DNA of 32,312 nt from a virus, in IMG/VR virus record IMGVR_UViG_3300030060_001790, positions 1 through 32,312 of that record. One strand, written 5' to 3'. Positions 22,256 to 29,973 of the stretch are shown here, piece by piece. The notes beneath the pieces were generated by a model, which saw only the letters and a list, made by a program, of their open reading frames with translations, was not told where the DNA came from and ran no database searches. The position numbers were made by a program, and so were the translations under genes. The stretch's first letter is position 1. Each line of letters starts with the position of its first letter.

Positions 22256-22705
22256 TTAATAAGGTTCTATTGGTACCCAAACGTTGCCTGCACCTGGAAT
22301 AATAGGGTTCCAAGTAATTACCCCTACGTCATTAGATGTGATTGTTAATTGATTAGCACTTACATCTATGTTTGCCGTACCTGTTATTGTAACACTGCTA
22401 GCCTTTAAAGTCAAAGGCATTCCACTTATGTTAATATTCGCCGATCCACTAGCTGTAACTAGAGCAGAATTTAAAGTTAAAGGAGAGGCACTAATATTGA
22501 CATTAGCATCCGCTGTAAGTGTAACTGCACCAGATCCTAGAGTTAACGGATCTCCAGCCACAATTACATTGGCTGCATCCCCTGTTGCAGTAGAAGCTCC
22601 TACCGATAAAGTTAATGCATTAGCACTAACATTAATAGTAACATTGCCTACTAATGTTGTAGTGGCAAATGGTAATGCTGATATTGCGTCAAATCCTAAA
22701 CTCAT
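22256..22705 (-). CDS. Tandem-repeat virion protein (beta repeats)
   Basis: Protein of 149 residues built of about five imperfect repeats of 22 residues between residues 17 and 127, each of the form (T)x-x-x-A-N-(V/I)-x-(I/V)-S-A-x-P-L-T-L-x-S-x-x-V. The LTL cores recur at 31, 54, 76, 98 and 120. It ends with a Pro/Trp segment (WNPIIPGAGNVWVPIEPY). Such a repeat should fold as stacked strands, for instance a fibre shaft or beta-helix. It is preceded by AAGGAT and by a GC-rich hairpin. A tail fibre or fibre-associated role is inferred from composition and neighbours. Confidence 0.8.
   Translation of the reverse strand: MSLGFDAISALPFATTTLVGNVTINVSANALTLSVGASTATGDAANVIVAGDPLTLGSGAVTLTADANVNISASPLTLNSALVTASGSANINISGMPLTLKASSVTITGTANIDVSANQLTITSNDVGVITWNPIIPGAGNVWVPIEPY
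22325..22657 (-). repeat. Five tandem copies of a 66-bp coding repeat
   Basis: The repeat region encodes five 22- to 23-residue units with core LTL, which is why the opposite strand also shows a long open frame. DNA identity between copies is moderate, so the units are old rather than freshly duplicated. Confidence 0.65.
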
Positions 22706-22768: not shown

Positions 22769-23446
22769 TCATCGTTTAAACCAAGATGGAAGACCTAAAT
22801 GAGGACGCTTATCAAACATATTATCTTTAGCTCCCGGTGTTTTACGATTATTATAATGAAGAAAAACCTGAATACATTCTTTTCCTTTAAATTTTTCTCT
22901 CCAATGCTCTAGCTCACATCCTGAATAAACCAACATATCTCCTGGTTTTAAATCTATTTTAATACCTTTGTCTTTTGTTGGTGCATAATCTTGAATTTTA
23001 TGTTCACCAAACTTAGGTCCATAAACATAACCTGCTTTTGGATCAGGGTTTAGATATATAGGCCAATCATCGCCCCCTAGATTCATTGTGGTAGATATCT
23101 CACAACTAAATCTATCTTTATGCCTTTTAAGAATGTCCCCTTTTTTATAAATTCTTGCATATGTATAAGCAGGATATAATTTAAGTCCTGTTGCTTTTTC
23201 CATTGCTGGTTGACATTTTAACATTAAAGTTTCCATAGCCATATTAGCATATTGAGAATAGGTGTTTGGTATTTGACCATCGGGTTCTTCATACGCTCCT
23301 AAAATATCTTCAAAAGGAGAAAAATATCTTGCAACTCTACACGTGTCATAAACTTGTTTTTGCATACTAAAATAGTTTGCAACAAAAGCTGCTAGCTCTT
23401 TTGATATTGCTTGACGAATAACTGTATACTTTTTTTTCTTAAACAT
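22769..23446 (-). CDS. 2OG-Fe(II) oxygenase (P4H-like)
   Basis: Protein of 225 residues with a double-stranded beta-helix fold pattern. Metal ligands H109-x-D111 (LKRHKDRF) and H181 (LEHWREKF) are at the expected spacing, followed by strand CIQVFLHYNN. PGDMLVYSG at 168-176 precedes the distal His, as in prolyl-hydroxylase-type enzymes. Such enzymes use 2-oxoglutarate and O2 to hydroxylate proteins, or sometimes other substrates. The start overlaps the previous gene by eight bases. It is the last of four jelly-roll genes in a row. The substrate is unknown; tail proteins nearby are candidates. Confidence 0.85.
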   Translation of the reverse strand: MFKKKKYTVIRQAISKELAAFVANYFSMQKQVYDTCRVARYFSPFEDILGAYEEPDGQIPNTYSQYANMAMETLMLKCQPAMEKATGLKLYPAYTYARIYKKGDILKRHKDRFSCEISTTMNLGGDDWPIYLNPDPKAGYVYGPKFGEHKIQDYAPTKDKGIKIDLKPGDMLVYSGCELEHWREKFKGKECIQVFLHYNNRKTPGAKDNMFDKRPHLGLPSWFKR

Positions 23447-24074
23447 CCTTAGCGTGCTCCTTTAATACAGCTGATATATTAAAATGAATAAATCTAAATG
23501 GAGCTTTACCATAATCTACAGAAAATTCGTGTTCTAAGTATCCAGGAAAAAAAATAAGTAATCCAGGTTCTGGTTTAAAATTAACTAATTCTGTTCCTGA
23601 ATATATTCCTTTTTGATCTTTCATATGTAATTTAGTTGCTCTTGCACCGGTCCTCGGTTCGTGAAAAACTGGGTATGAAGTTTTTTCACTAGCTTTTAAA
23701 AAATAAAAACCATTGACGTGTGTGTTCCAATGAATGTGCGCTGAATGATTTCCACCACCTTTTTTTGCAAACTCTTGTACCCACATTTGTTCAAAGAAAG
23801 TTGTATACTTACTCATATCAAATCCTGAATGATCTAAAAACTCCCAACACTTTTGACCTACATAATTTCTAAAATCCATAAATTGAGTATCGCCTAGTAA
23901 TTGTGTTGAATGAAATGATCGACCAAAATCGCCGTGAGCTTTTATATGAGCTTTAGCTTCTTTATTTTTTTTGGCTTCTTTAATATATGGATCAGACGCT
24001 TTATTTAAAGACTTAACAAAGTCTTTTTTAATTTCACTCCATATGGGTGTTACAAAATAATTATTTATATACAT
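23439..24074 (-). CDS. 2OG-Fe(II) oxygenase family protein (phage-type)
   Basis: Protein of 211 residues resembling the phage/marine 2OG-Fe(II) oxygenase family with consensus H-x-H ... G-x-Y-Y-L and PxPGxLxxFPxxLxH. Here NHSAHIHWNTHVNGFYFL (109-126) supplies candidate ligands H113 and H115, PEPGLLIFFPGYLEHEF (169-185) supplies H182, and R194 sits in the strand FRFIHFNIS. The second ligand is not Asp, so metal binding is less certain than in its neighbours. It starts one base after the upstream stop and overlaps the next gene by eight bases. Confidence 0.8.
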   Translation of the reverse strand: MYINNYFVTPIWSEIKKDFVKSLNKASDPYIKEAKKNKEAKAHIKAHGDFGRSFHSTQLLGDTQFMDFRNYVGQKCWEFLDHSGFDMSKYTTFFEQMWVQEFAKKGGGNHSAHIHWNTHVNGFYFLKASEKTSYPVFHEPRTGARATKLHMKDQKGIYSGTELVNFKPEPGLLIFFPGYLEHEFSVDYGKAPFRFIHFNISAVLKEHAKDV

Positions 24075-24075
24075 A

Positions 24076-24714
24076 CTATTTAAATGGATATCCTAAATGC
24101 CATAAGACAAGTGAGTATCTAGTTCCTCTCGTTATTGGTTTAACTCTATGCCACAAATGTGAAGGAAATACTACGATAGAGCCTTTAGGTAATATTTCCG
24201 GTACTTTTCTTATATGTTTACTTTCATCCCTCATATTAGGATCATAATTTCTAAAATCAAATTCTAATTCCCCACCTGTATATTCGGAGCCATCTGTTAA
24301 TTGACAAGTCATAGATAGTTTTCTAACTTTGCCATTATCAGGATCACCTTCTTTTCTTTGATAGGGTTTAGGCCAAGGATCTGTATGCCAATCATAATAT
24401 TGGTTTAATTTATATTTTGTAAACTGACAAGACTCGGATCTGTCCCACTGAAAATTCCATCCAGCATTTTTATTAGCCATATGAACATATGGATGTATTT
24501 CTTTATAGATCCAAGTATCGTTTAACCAAACTAAATCAGAATTTCTTTTTCTTTTTAAATCTAATACTTCATCTTTATTTAATATTTTCTTATCACCATA
24601 ACCGCCTGTCTTTGCCATTACTTCTTCTTTAGATAATGCATATTTAACAACTTCATCACAAAACTTAGGAGTTAACACTCCACTAAAATACCAAAAGTAA
24701 TTAGATAAATTCAT
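24076..24714 (-). CDS. 2OG-Fe(II) oxygenase (PKHD-type hydroxylase-like)
   Basis: Protein of 212 residues with the best oxygenase signature of the cassette: H110-T-D112 (YYDWHTDPW), the GGELEF strand at 148-153, then PKGSIVVFPSHLWHRV with H189, and R199 (TRYSLVLW) to bind 2-oxoglutarate. Length and motif order match PKHD-type hydroxylases such as PiuC/YbiX. It overlaps the preceding gene by 14 bases and ends one base before the next start. The substrate is unknown; similar genes lie near tail fiber genes in cyanophages (from memory). Confidence 0.92.
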   Translation of the reverse strand: MNLSNYFWYFSGVLTPKFCDEVVKYALSKEEVMAKTGGYGDKKILNKDEVLDLKRKRNSDLVWLNDTWIYKEIHPYVHMANKNAGWNFQWDRSESCQFTKYKLNQYYDWHTDPWPKPYQRKEGDPDNGKVRKLSMTCQLTDGSEYTGGELEFDFRNYDPNMRDESKHIRKVPEILPKGSIVVFPSHLWHRVKPITRGTRYSLVLWHLGYPFK

Positions 24715-25204
24715 AAGATGTAGTTAAAATAAAGTTTAAAGAATCCTTTTGATTGTTTGTTATGTAATACATCTGCGTAGATGGAAACATAATAAAATAA
24801 TTATTTTTTAAAGGTATGTCCCAACTTCTTCCCGCTCTTCTGTTTTGGTCATAGTGTATTCGAACACTACAGTCCTTAACATTTACTCCATAAAGGAATG
24901 TGTAATCAGGAGAATTTCTTAAATCAACTGGATCAATATTTAATAAAGGAATAGAAACTTCTTGTGGTTTATAAGCATTACCCCACGTTTCTTTATTTAC
25001 TAAAGTAAAACCGTGCTCGACATTTATATGCTCTCGCATATAAGTATTTAACATATCCCAGTTTCTTGAAAATGGAAATTTAGAATTTTTAATTTGTGAT
25101 GATAAAATATCTGATTGAAGTGTGTCTCGGTTTATTTCAAAACCTTTAGGCATATCAATCTTGCCATAATGTAAATCTATTTCAGATAATACTTTCTTGT
25201 GCAT
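24701..25204 (-). CDS. Jelly-roll protein resembling 2OG oxygenases, distal His missing
   Basis: Protein of 167 residues whose C-terminal half follows the oxygenase layout: H117-x-D119 (IHYDQNRRAGRSW), then NYFIMFPSTQMYYITNN and LNFILTTSYEF. Where the distal His ligand is expected (after FPS) the sequence has Met-Tyr-Tyr, so the metal triad looks incomplete. It may be an inactive relative, a cupin with another ligand set, or a non-enzymatic virion part. The start at 25204 has only a weak ribosome-binding site; M18 is an alternative. It leads the oxygenase cassette and overlaps the next gene by 14 bases. Confidence 0.7.
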   Translation of the reverse strand: MHKKVLSEIDLHYGKIDMPKGFEINRDTLQSDILSSQIKNSKFPFSRNWDMLNTYMREHINVEHGFTLVNKETWGNAYKPQEVSIPLLNIDPVDLRNSPDYTFLYGVNVKDCSVRIHYDQNRRAGRSWDIPLKNNYFIMFPSTQMYYITNNQKDSLNFILTTSYEFI

Positions 25205-25222: not shown

Positions 25223-25678
25223 TTATGCTTTGCCGTCTGTCAAGTCCCAAGATTGACCAGCTTCATTCCAAACATAATGCCATCTGTGAGTATTTGCTGT
25301 ATTTTGTGATTCTTGTTCTGCTGTTAATGCTGGAGCATCGCCAATTGGTGATTTCCATAATGCTGTTGTAGTATCTTTTACCCAAGATGGATAAGGTGAT
25401 TGAGGCCAAAAAATTTGATTATCTTCGTCCCAAGTATAACCTATACCTGCATAGTTTCCTCTAAATGCTTTTGAATTGTCGCCTGATGAATGTGTATTTT
25501 GTCTAGTATTATATGAAGTTTGAATCCACATAGGAGCAGGCCAATTATTATGTCTCTCTAAATATTGTTGTCCTACTGATTCATCTTCAACGCCATCAGC
25601 GTTAAGCATATCATTGTTACCACAAGTTAATACTCCGATAACTTTTCCATTCATTCCTATTTTTGCAAAGTGTGCCAT
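25223..25678 (-). CDS. Conserved marine-phage virion protein
   Basis: Protein of 151 residues beginning MAHFAKIGMNGKVIGVLTC, with aromatic-rich segments (NNWPAPMWIQTSYNTRQN, GYTWDEDNQIFWPQSPYP, TTTALWKSPIGDAPAL) and a C-terminal WHYVWNEAGQSWDL. I recall near-identical proteins in many cyanophages and pelagiphages, usually annotated as hypothetical or virion structural. AAGGAGAAACAT gives a strong ribosome-binding site. Location between the glycine-rich tail proteins and the oxygenase cassette supports a tail or capsid-decoration role. No catalytic motif seen. Confidence 0.85.
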   Translation of the reverse strand: MAHFAKIGMNGKVIGVLTCGNNDMLNADGVEDESVGQQYLERHNNWPAPMWIQTSYNTRQNTHSSGDNSKAFRGNYAGIGYTWDEDNQIFWPQSPYPSWVKDTTTALWKSPIGDAPALTAEQESQNTANTHRWHYVWNEAGQSWDLTDGKA

Positions 25679-27187: not shown

Positions 27188-28558
27188 CTATTGAAATTTA
27201 TACCTTATCATTACTATACCTGAACCACCACCTTGACCATTACCATTACCACCACCTCCGCCACCACCAGTATTTATTGTTCCTGCAACAGCAGCTATAG
27301 CAGGTGATGGTTGACACGCATTCCCACCTCCACCTGAACCACCTATTCCTTTACAAGTGCTATATTTATAAGAACCACCGCCTCCACCAGCAAAATATCT
27401 TGTTGAACTGACTGGTCCTGGAGTTCCATAACTTGGAGCTGTTGGACCTAATACAGCATCTGGCCAGTAATTTCCTGTACCACCATTACCACCAGTATTT
27501 ACGGGTGGACTACCAGGAGTACCATTTGTTCCTGCAGTAGTTGCACCACCTCCACCACCTCCACCATAATAAGGTGCAGCAGATCCTGTTCCACCATCTT
27601 CACCTTGAGAAACGGGAGTAGCCGGTGTATTACCTGATCCACCTACATCTGGTCCGTGGCCTCCACCACCTCCAGATCCACCATCAGCGCCAGTTCCTAT
27701 GTTACTATTAGCTCCACCACCTCTTCCACCGCCAGCTGATGTAATTGTTGTTGAACCTGCAAAAACTGAAGCATCTCCAGAAGTAGCACAAGGTATTCCA
27801 GTTCCTGCTCCTCCTACTGTAACTGGATAACCTGTTGCTGTAACTGGTAAACCTGCAGTAGTTGGACTTGGATAATTTTGTCTAAAACCACCAGCACCTC
27901 CGCCTCCAAAACTTCCTCCTCCACCACCAGCAACAACCGCGTATTCTATAGTATTTGAACCTGCGCAATTACCTACAGAACAAACTGTAAAAGTTCCTGG
28001 ACTTGTAAAAATATGAGTTTTGAAATCACCAACAGTAAGTGTAGTATTACCCCCACACGCTGCTATGTAGGTAGGTATTCCCGATGAAGAACTAAATGTT
28101 GTAGATTCTATTGATCTCCAACCAACAGTAGAATCCACATAAACTAAAGTTAAACCTTGACCCTCGGTACTTAATGTTAATAAACCTGCAGCAGTTCCAC
28201 CATTAATTTTAACACCTGAGGGTGCTTGAATTACAAATGAATAACTATCAAAAGTATTATTATAATCTTGAATTGAAATGATATCTCCTGCACTAGCAGT
28301 TGGTAAAGTCATTGTTATTTTACCTGCTGTAGTATTTATAAAATAACCTTCACCGTTTGCCCCTGTAAAATCTCCTGTTTTAGGAGTTGTTTGCCAATCT
28401 ACTGTTCCTGTTCGACCAAATCCTGATTGTGATGCACCAGCAGCTAAGTTAATACTATCGCCACTTGCACCCAGTGTAATTGTTGTACCACATTTTTTGA
28501 TGATGTTTGAATCATCTGAAACTTTATTTACATTATCTACTTTAATTTTACTTGTCAT
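27188..28558 (-). CDS. Glycine-rich tail-tip protein, copy 2 (receptor-binding candidate)
   Basis: Protein of 456 residues with the same plan as its neighbours: N-terminal anchor (KIKVDNVNKVSDDSNIIKKC, SGFGRTGTVDWQ), the AGD beta domain (TASAGDIISIQDYNNT to LTLVYVDSTVGW), and a Gly-rich C-terminal half (YAVVAGGGGGSFGGGGAGG, PYYGGGGGGGATTAG, TRYFAGGGGGSYK) ending SGIVMIRYKFQ. It is coupled to copy 1 by TAATG. The middle differs most from the other two copies, as expected if tips bind different receptors. Confidence 0.85.
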   Translation of the reverse strand: MTSKIKVDNVNKVSDDSNIIKKCGTTITLGASGDSINLAAGASQSGFGRTGTVDWQTTPKTGDFTGANGEGYFINTTAGKITMTLPTASAGDIISIQDYNNTFDSYSFVIQAPSGVKINGGTAAGLLTLSTEGQGLTLVYVDSTVGWRSIESTTFSSSSGIPTYIAACGGNTTLTVGDFKTHIFTSPGTFTVCSVGNCAGSNTIEYAVVAGGGGGSFGGGGAGGFRQNYPSPTTAGLPVTATGYPVTVGGAGTGIPCATSGDASVFAGSTTITSAGGGRGGGANSNIGTGADGGSGGGGGHGPDVGGSGNTPATPVSQGEDGGTGSAAPYYGGGGGGGATTAGTNGTPGSPPVNTGGNGGTGNYWPDAVLGPTAPSYGTPGPVSSTRYFAGGGGGSYKYSTCKGIGGSGGGGNACQPSPAIAAVAGTINTGGGGGGGNGNGQGGGSGIVMIRYKFQ

Positions 28559-29973
28559 TATTGATACCTATACCTTAATATTACTACTCCAGATCCACCA
28601 TTTCCGCCCGGTTGGTTAGAACTACTACAGCCACCACCTGCACCTCCACCTCCGCCAGTGTTAACTGTTCCTGCTGTTCCTGGACTACCTGATTTACCCC
28701 AACCACCAGTTCCACCACCACCAGTTCCACCGGTTCCTGGAGCGCCAGATGGGGGATCCCATCTCCGACCTCCGCCACCGCCGCCAGCATAAGCTACGCT
28801 AGCTCCTGAAATTTCTGTTGTTGCTCCTGCACCACCATCACCAGCTTCACCTGGTCCTGGATAATTTTGTCCGTTATCACCTACAGCAGTTGCTCCTCCA
28901 CCACCGCCGCCATTTTGAGCTAAAGCTGAACTACACGATAAGTTGGCTGTTCCTCCATTATTTCCTTGTGCTGGAGTTGTTGGAGGTGTGTTTCCTGTTC
29001 CTGCACCACATCCACCAATAGGGCCTGTATAACCGAAACCGCCTCCACCAGATCCACCATTTCCTCCTGGAGTTCCTGCACCTGAATAAGGACTGGCTCC
29101 AAATCCACCTGTACCACCACCCGCAGAAGTAATTGATGAAAAAGTTGAAACATCTCCTACGCCTGGTACATTACCCGCTGAATTAGCACTTCCTCCTCCT
29201 CCAACGGCTATTGGATAAGATGTTGCTGTTACTGTAATTCTGTTTCCTGGTGTGGGATATCCATCTAAGGGACTTGCTGTATAAGGAGTTGAAAGAGATT
29301 TTAATTCTCTATATCCACCAGCACCTCCACCACCACCACCACCTTCCGCACTTCCGCCACCTCCAGAACCACCAGCTACAACCATATAAGAAATTATATT
29401 TCTTGCAGCACAAGCTGCTATAGCTGAAACCGTAAAAGTTCCTGGTGCTGTAAATTTATGAATTTTGTCATTACCAGAATATGAAACTGTTCCACCACAG
29501 CAAGTAGCTTGTACAAAGGCACTTGCTCTTACATTAGATGTTGAATCCATAGTATTAACCCAACCTTGTGTTGAATCTGCATATACAAAAGTTACTGATT
29601 GACCTTCTGTAATTAAACTAACATCCGCATTTATTCCACCTATTTTATCTGTTCCATTGGGACTTATAGTGACAGCATATGTTTGCCAAGTAGCTGCGTA
29701 ATCCGCCATAGAAATTATATCTCCAGCAGAACCTGCTGGTAAGTTAAGTGTTATTGTGCCTGATGTTGTATTTAAAAAATATCCTTTTCCGGAAACTCCT
29801 GTAACAGGAGAATCTCCGGTTACTTTTGGAGTTGTAATCCAATCAACAGTTCCTGTTCTTCCAAATCCTGTTTGACTAGCACCACTACCTAAAGCTACTG
29901 TATCTCCTGAACCCCCTAAAGTTAAGGTTGTTCCGCATTGTGGTTCAATTGTATTTACTTCTACTTTACTCAT
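28558..29973 (-). CDS. Glycine-rich tail-tip protein, copy 1 (receptor-binding candidate)
   Basis: Protein of 471 residues: anchor (KVEVNTIEPQCGTTLTLGG, QTGFGRTGTVDW), AGD beta domain (PAGSAGDIISMADYAATW to VTFVYADSTQGW), and Gly-rich C-terminal half (YMVVAGGSGGGGSAEGGG, NGGGGGGATAVGDNG, VNTGGGGGAGGG) ending GVVILRYRYQ. The closing RYRYQ matches RYKYQ and RYKFQ of copies 3 and 2, so the tip end is conserved. It begins at the TAATG overlap with the 58-residue gene and has no separate Shine-Dalgarno. Confidence 0.85.
   Translation of the reverse strand: MSKVEVNTIEPQCGTTLTLGGSGDTVALGSGASQTGFGRTGTVDWITTPKVTGDSPVTGVSGKGYFLNTTSGTITLNLPAGSAGDIISMADYAATWQTYAVTISPNGTDKIGGINADVSLITEGQSVTFVYADSTQGWVNTMDSTSNVRASAFVQATCCGGTVSYSGNDKIHKFTAPGTFTVSAIAACAARNIISYMVVAGGSGGGGSAEGGGGGGGAGGYRELKSLSTPYTASPLDGYPTPGNRITVTATSYPIAVGGGGSANSAGNVPGVGDVSTFSSITSAGGGTGGFGASPYSGAGTPGGNGGSGGGGFGYTGPIGGCGAGTGNTPPTTPAQGNNGGTANLSCSSALAQNGGGGGGATAVGDNGQNYPGPGEAGDGGAGATTEISGASVAYAGGGGGGRRWDPPSGAPGTGGTGGGGTGGWGKSGSPGTAGTVNTGGGGGAGGGCSSSNQPGGNGGSGVVILRYRYQ

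Follow-up and report, generated by a model that had tools for sequence, protein, structure and literature searches.

A predicted pseudo-oxygenase maintained in an oxygenase cassette beside the glycine-rich fibre genes of HTVC023P-type pelagiphages

The co-location of oxygenase and 'ferrochelatase' genes has been published for gp64-gp67 of HTVC023P, together with the observation that a 2OG oxygenase is adjacent whenever the ferrochelatase is present (Wittmers et al. 2022, PMC9599517). The ferrochelatase name is also carried in PMC11561400, which states phrog2954, and Sullivan et al. used the label 'Hyp. with ferrochetalase domain' (PMC3037559). In seasonal marine viruses, the auxiliary metabolic genes reported as enriched include phrog_2954 'ferrochelatase' and 2OG oxygenases, and the ferrochelatase name had been taken to mean iron or heme metabolism. 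A catalytic 2OG domain paired with another domain that shares its fold and has no metal site is known from OGFOD1/Tpa1, where the authors think that substrate or partner binding by the latter is likely (PMC4396695). The co-location of oxygenase and 'ferrochelatase' genes is already known, whereas no report of a corrected identity for phrog_2954, of a pseudo-oxygenase, or of fibre hydroxylation or a fibre link in such phages was found in the open-access literature (with few subscription papers).

The stretch analysed in this study (the window) is a virus record 32,312 bases long and represents part of an HTVC023P-type pelagiphage genome. Its DNA polymerase shares 86% identity with the enzyme of phage 023Pt_psg01 and 53-56% with the enzymes of HTVC023P and HTVC027P. 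The main genes of the region all lie on the minus strand, and in order of transcription three glycine-rich PF21722 genes and a phrog_7759 gene are followed by the four cassette genes g4, g3, g2 and g1:

28558..29973, minus strand: glycine-rich fibre-type protein, PF21722
27188..28558, minus strand: glycine-rich fibre-type protein, PF21722
25727..27178, minus strand: glycine-rich fibre-type protein, PF21722; 25% Gly, 6.4% Pro
25223..25678, minus strand: phrog_7759 protein (E 6e-30), 151 aa, between the glycine-rich fibres and the cassette
24701..25204, minus strand: g4, 167 aa; predicted conserved pseudo-oxygenase, metal histidines and 2OG arginine replaced
24701..24714, minus strand: g4/g3 overlap, 14 bases, ATGAATTTATCTAA
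24076..24714, minus strand: g3, 212 aa; predicted PF13640 oxygenase, PKHD/PiuC-like, H110-x-D112...H189...R199
23439..24074, minus strand: g2, 211 aa; predicted PF13759 (2OG-FeII_Oxy_5) oxygenase, H113-x-H115...H182...R194
22769..23446, minus strand: g1, 225 aa; predicted P4H-like 2OG oxygenase fold, H109-x-D111...H181; phrog_2954, misnamed 'ferrochelatase' as judged from motif and model

The spacing between g3 and g2 is 1 base, and g2 and g1 overlap by 8 bases. An earlier reading of the letters alone (the sequence-only reading) had proposed four consecutive genes at 22769-25204 with overlaps of 14 and 8 bases, three of them with oxygenase motifs and one degenerate. Open reading frames, profile matches and models bear out the four genes, the overlaps are present (g4/g3 and g2/g1), and the block is co-oriented beside tail genes, with three probable oxygenases and one degenerate relative. 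Promoter-like sites in the region were not above background and terminator-like sites were few and weak. Downstream of the cassette, positions 22256-22705 encode a 149-residue protein composed of repeats centred on 'NISxxPLTL'. Its matches, beta-helical and phrog_430 baseplate, are weak; it is probably a fibre or spike.

The fibre-cassette-tail order of the window is also carried by HTVC023P, whose gp64-gp67 are the same four genes in the same order. The two differ in how these genes are read: in the HTVC023P annotation the last gene is a 'ferrochelatase' and gp64 (g4) is hypothetical, whereas here g1 has a predicted oxygenase fold and g4 appears to be a pseudo-oxygenase. The arrays of S-SM1 and S-RSM4 resemble the window in that a glycine-rich gene and phrog_7759 are followed by PF13640, PF13759 and phrog_2954 genes. 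They differ in being longer (about ten genes; those scanned in S-SM1 are mostly oxygenases), in containing extra families, in an unrelated virion core and in that no g4 was found.

Two profile-supported oxygenases and the so-called ferrochelatase

g2 matches Pfam PF13759 at 46.8 bits (cut-off 27) and scores 50.7 bits against TIGR02466, under the cut-off of 62.5; its closest PDB sequences are 2rg4 and 3bvc. Its motif is invariant in 72/72 dereplicated sequences, with H-x-H where H-x-D is usual. g3 matches PF13640 at 54.2 bits (cut-off 27) and resembles PiuC chain 9ghl (E 3e-4), and H110-x-D112 is found in 75/75 dereplicated relatives, H189 and R199 in 74/75 with one gap. Because the best score of g3 against the NCBIfam YbiX/PiuC equivalogs, 53.2 bits, misses the cut-off of 143, we call it PKHD-like only. 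Both g2 and g3 are predicted 2OG-Fe(II) oxygenases, in keeping with the H-x-H type and the PKHD-like type with H-x-D...H...R that had been read from the letters.

g1 falls in phrog_2954 (E 4.6e-51), which PHROGs labels ferrochelatase, and has no Pfam family match; its relatives in HTVC023P, HTVC033P, HTVC008M, Mosig and S-SM1 likewise match phrog_2954 and no Pfam family (5/5). The H-x-D...H triad is invariant in 62/62 dereplicated relatives and in 29/29 sequences of an alignment reaching down to 36% identity. The AlphaFold model of g1 (pLDDT 89.9, pTM 0.87) has a double-stranded beta-helix fold, and its best PDB match by Foldseek is the prolyl 4-hydroxylase 4j25 of P. putida (E 2.5e-8). VIA matched it to SnoN (Z 16.6, rmsd 3.3, 198 residues) and P4H (Z 15.3), PHD2 was also matched, and the Foldseek and VIA matches listed are 2OG-dependent oxygenases and close relatives. 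No significant match came from comparing the g1 alignment with g3 by profile, nor from PDB sequence searches with A3 and A4.

The view implied in PMC9599517 and PMC11561400, that g1 is a real ferrochelatase acting in iron or heme metabolism, draws only on the inherited family name. Against it, PF00762 (ferrochelatase) has zero matches in the virus record, with 8/14 control genomes positive, and g1 itself gives none at E up to 1. Since the H-x-D...H triad is invariant, the model matches are 2OG oxygenases and no ferrochelatase match exists, the name 'ferrochelatase' is, judged from motif and model, wrong for g1 and phrog_2954; we regard a real ferrochelatase as ruled out, its probability being practically nil.

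The P4H-like label given to this gene in the sequence-only reading holds for the fold and the triad and fails at one point. P4H and PHD enzymes hold 2OG via a position 8-10 residues past the distal histidine, and the g1 family alignment has no conserved Arg or Lys 8-10 positions past that histidine. R98 and R183 are invariant, and either of them could hold the 2OG in g1.

In a genome scan, most relatives of g1 lay on short contigs from marine metagenome bins or in SAR11 single-cell assemblies. Those in bacterial assemblies (L416-L430, several from one Maricaulis bin) are probably phage DNA, so no cellular function can be borrowed from them for g1.

The degenerate relative g4

g4 has neither a Pfam nor a PHROG match, and profile comparison of its alignment with g2 gave no significant match. 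Its AlphaFold model (pLDDT 88.4) is a double-stranded beta-helix that VIA matches best to 2rg4 (Z 14.8 over 157 residues) and 3bvc (Z 14.7). Both are uncharacterised marine alphaproteobacterial proteins, and the fold search with g4 and the sequence search with g2 alike rank them best; they keep the H-x-H, whereas g4 does not. Among the best matches is also the prolyl 4-hydroxylase of chlorovirus PBCV-1 (5c5t, 5c5u; Z 13.8). The related beta-helix folds that had been proposed from motifs find support in the models of g1 and g4, both of which match 2OG oxygenases (best VIA Z 16.6 and 14.8).

The site residues of g4 were compared in 49 proteins 43-87% identical to the window g4, and losses were read against an intact-motif relative (L118:305-859, upstream of g4, profile E 5e-10). 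The proximal histidine is Asn in 38/49 and otherwise Gln, Asp or Glu, with His in 2/49, while Asp91 is retained in 45/49; the distal histidine is Tyr in 48/49 and the 2OG arginine is Asn in 49/49. The missing distal histidine had been recognised before, and the proximal histidine and the 2OG arginine must be added to it as replaced. An 'H-Y-D' in g4 (H117-x-D119) belongs to a different strand and not to the metal site, and Tyr or Phe frequently replaces H117. The intact-motif relative lies between a glycine-rich fibre gene and a phrog_7759 gene, and in some phages active-looking and dead g4 paralogues stand close together (L118).

Median pairwise dN/dS is 0.147 for g4, compared with 0.126 for g1, 0.149 for g2 and 0.175 for g3. 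The next cassette gene is g3 for 201/211 distinct g4 genes, 6 of the other 10 being at contig ends, and the overlap with g3 has the same 14-base length in 155/211 distinct g4 loci. A decaying pseudogene is ruled out by dN/dS and conservation. Because purifying selection resembles that on its neighbours, the substitutions are near-uniform and the 14-base overlap recurs, g4 is, to judge from sequence conservation and the model, a maintained pseudo-oxygenase, conserved after its chemistry was lost.

A role for such a protein may be sought by comparison with OGFOD1/Tpa1. That protein is one fused eukaryotic polypeptide and a ribosomal prolyl hydroxylase, whereas the dead g4 is a separate gene and a putative partner. 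g4 and g3 may be co-translated and form a complex, with g4 made in proportion to g3, and g4 could then be a subunit that binds the substrate or has a stabilising effect, much as is supposed for the non-catalytic second domain of OGFOD1/Tpa1.

The weaker structural matches of g4 include an AlkB entry, and nucleic-acid repair or manipulation of the 2-oxoglutarate/nitrogen signal has been proposed for cyanophage 2OG oxygenases in PMC3037559, citing earlier work. We consider such a role very improbable for the cassette, which in structure matches protein and small-molecule hydroxylases best and lies among tail genes, away from the replication genes.

Fibre neighbours and a possible hydroxylation substrate

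The dominant order in HTVC023P-type contigs is glycine-rich fibre, phrog_7759, g4, g3, g2, g1 and a downstream tail gene, and the cassette order is conserved in well over a hundred of them. On two contigs (L211, L224) the cassette (g3, g1, g4) is inverted and still adjoins phrog_7759 and a glycine-rich gene. A glycine-rich fibre and phrog_7759 also stand beside an oxygenase array in HTVC033P, HTVC008M, S-SM1 and S-RSM4; in HTVC008M, a T4-like myovirus, five oxygenase-type genes face the phrog_7759 gene and the gene of a protein of 297 residues, 33% of them glycine. Glycine-rich proteins are also encoded near the arrays of Mosig and S-RIM44. Both podovirus and myovirus lineages thus show the fibre link, with the genes in either orientation.

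Other phages depart from this arrangement. The three oxygenase genes of HTVC027P adjoin a tail-collar gene, and the stretch covered around them contains neither a glycine-rich fibre nor phrog_7759; g1 relatives of Syn30, S-RIM32 and S-SCSM2R are away from glycine-rich fibre genes. In HTVC027P, gp72 and gp74 (L336:17093-18754) are annotated as hypothetical and match PF13759; gp72-gp74 therefore form a three-gene oxygenase cassette, on the opposite strand.

The phrog_7759 loci allow the association to be counted. At 63 loci found with the window's phrog_7759 protein, which represent one lineage, a cassette gene is present in 62 and an upstream glycine-rich gene in 61. A glycine-rich gene lies within 3.5 kb in 46/47 near and 54/63 distant phrog_7759 loci, whereas an oxygenase is nearby in only 15/63 distant loci, which indicates that phrog_7759 belongs with the fibre and that the oxygenases are an optional extra. 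As 48/63 distant loci have no oxygenase nearby, the fibres do not need the oxygenases. Within distant loci, oxygenase genes are five times denser at 3.5 kb or less (32 in 442 kb) than farther away (6 in 428 kb). A strict all-or-none module of oxygenases and glycine-rich fibres is ruled out by HTVC027P and by the 48/63 loci without oxygenases, and the oxygenase link is to the tail-fibre region in general.

These counts bear directly on whether the tail-fibre region is a hotspot that collects auxiliary genes, in which case the oxygenases would act on host proteins or metabolites and have only their address in common. The variation in array size and content between phages, the many fibre loci without oxygenases, and the oxygenases of HTVC027P and S-SCSM2R without glycine-rich fibres nearby are consistent with such cargo. 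Against it, well over 100 HTVC023P-type contigs keep the cassette order, arrays recur beside glycine-rich and phrog_7759 genes in podo- and myoviruses in both orientations, and the dead subunit g4 is maintained; we judge it fairly unlikely, though a rival to be taken seriously.

The reading we put forward, with somewhat less than an even chance of being right, is that the cassette is a hydroxylation set whose target is a fibre protein of the virion, g4 being a partner without catalytic activity. The three 2OG/Fe(II)-dependent oxygenases, each from a different subfamily, and their catalytically dead sister g4 would be expressed as a single co-oriented, overlapping unit along with the glycine-rich tail-fibre proteins. 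Side chains of a nearby glycine-rich fibre or partner protein may be hydroxylated while the virion is assembled or earlier, which would make the fibre stiffer or alter receptor contacts. Protein modification is favoured because the fibre-gene link recurs across lineages and orientations and because the closest folds of g1 and g4 include protein hydroxylases (P4H, PHD2, the viral collagen P4H and P3H1). The sequence-only reading had suggested protein or glycan modification; the former is the one we favour, and glycan or host targets are possible. In S-SCSM2R, g1-like and PF13640 (g3-like) domains are fused in one protein of 427 residues, which supports joint action of the oxygenases. Points against the reading are the many distant phrog_7759 loci that have no oxygenase, the arrangement in HTVC027P, the g1 relatives of Syn30, S-RIM32 and S-SCSM2R that lie apart from such fibres, and the missing basic residue in g1.

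Proline would be the leading candidate residue. The glycine-rich proteins of distant loci contain 4.1% proline where oxygenases are present (13 loci) versus 2.4% where they are not (50 loci), a difference (Mann-Whitney p 2.7e-4) that is not corrected for ancestry. Pro-Gly pairs in the glycine-rich proteins are not enriched (observed/expected 0.84), which rules out a collagen-type X-Pro-Gly substrate. The PBCV-1 enzyme is a precedent for a viral prolyl hydroxylase. Unlike the cassette, it is one active protein, from a virus of algae, and its title calls it a collagen prolyl hydroxylase, whereas the fibres here have no Pro-Gly enrichment.

Hydroxylation could also prepare residues or sugars that are later glycosylated on the virion. 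In HTVC023P and HTVC027P, glycosyltransferase genes lie at a distance of a few kb, and the S-SCSM2R fusion heads a cluster (L269:12010-20043) with glycosyltransferases, a radical-SAM maturase and an amidinotransferase. No glycosyltransferase is present among the family-searched genes of the window, however, and none is annotated in the arrays of S-SM1 or S-RSM4, so that a glycan or protein-glycan route seems improbable to us.

The arrays hold further proteins of interest. That of S-RIM44 (L266:4906-12032), near three glycine-rich genes, contains two genes annotated as tryptophan halogenases and also a JmjC_2 gene, of the ribosomal-oxygenase family, which counts in favour of the hydroxylation reading. 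In the S-SM1 array, a 233-residue phrog_33749 protein (L271:15213-15914) with weak 4Fe-4S/SCIFF-like cysteine matches is possibly a peptide-modifying enzyme. Proteins named 'DNA endonuclease V' (phrog_274; L003:7242-7724, L006:5663-6175, L271:13145-13633) and 'DNA endonuclease' (phrog_2297; L271:12618-13142) also lie inside oxygenase arrays. Several of them score with PF13640 or PF13759, or with phrog_274 or phrog_2297 plus oxygenase PHROGs, and none has a Pfam endonuclease V match; the endonuclease labels are probably a second misnaming.

It is possible, though on balance doubtful, that several marine phage lineages carry a module of this kind for fibre maturation, in which hydroxylases organised by a pseudo-oxygenase modify the phage's own glycine-rich receptor-binding fibres. 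A dead oxygenase kept as a separate gene in an oxygenase operon, and with it a possible hydroxylated phage fibre, are directly testable with existing isolates.
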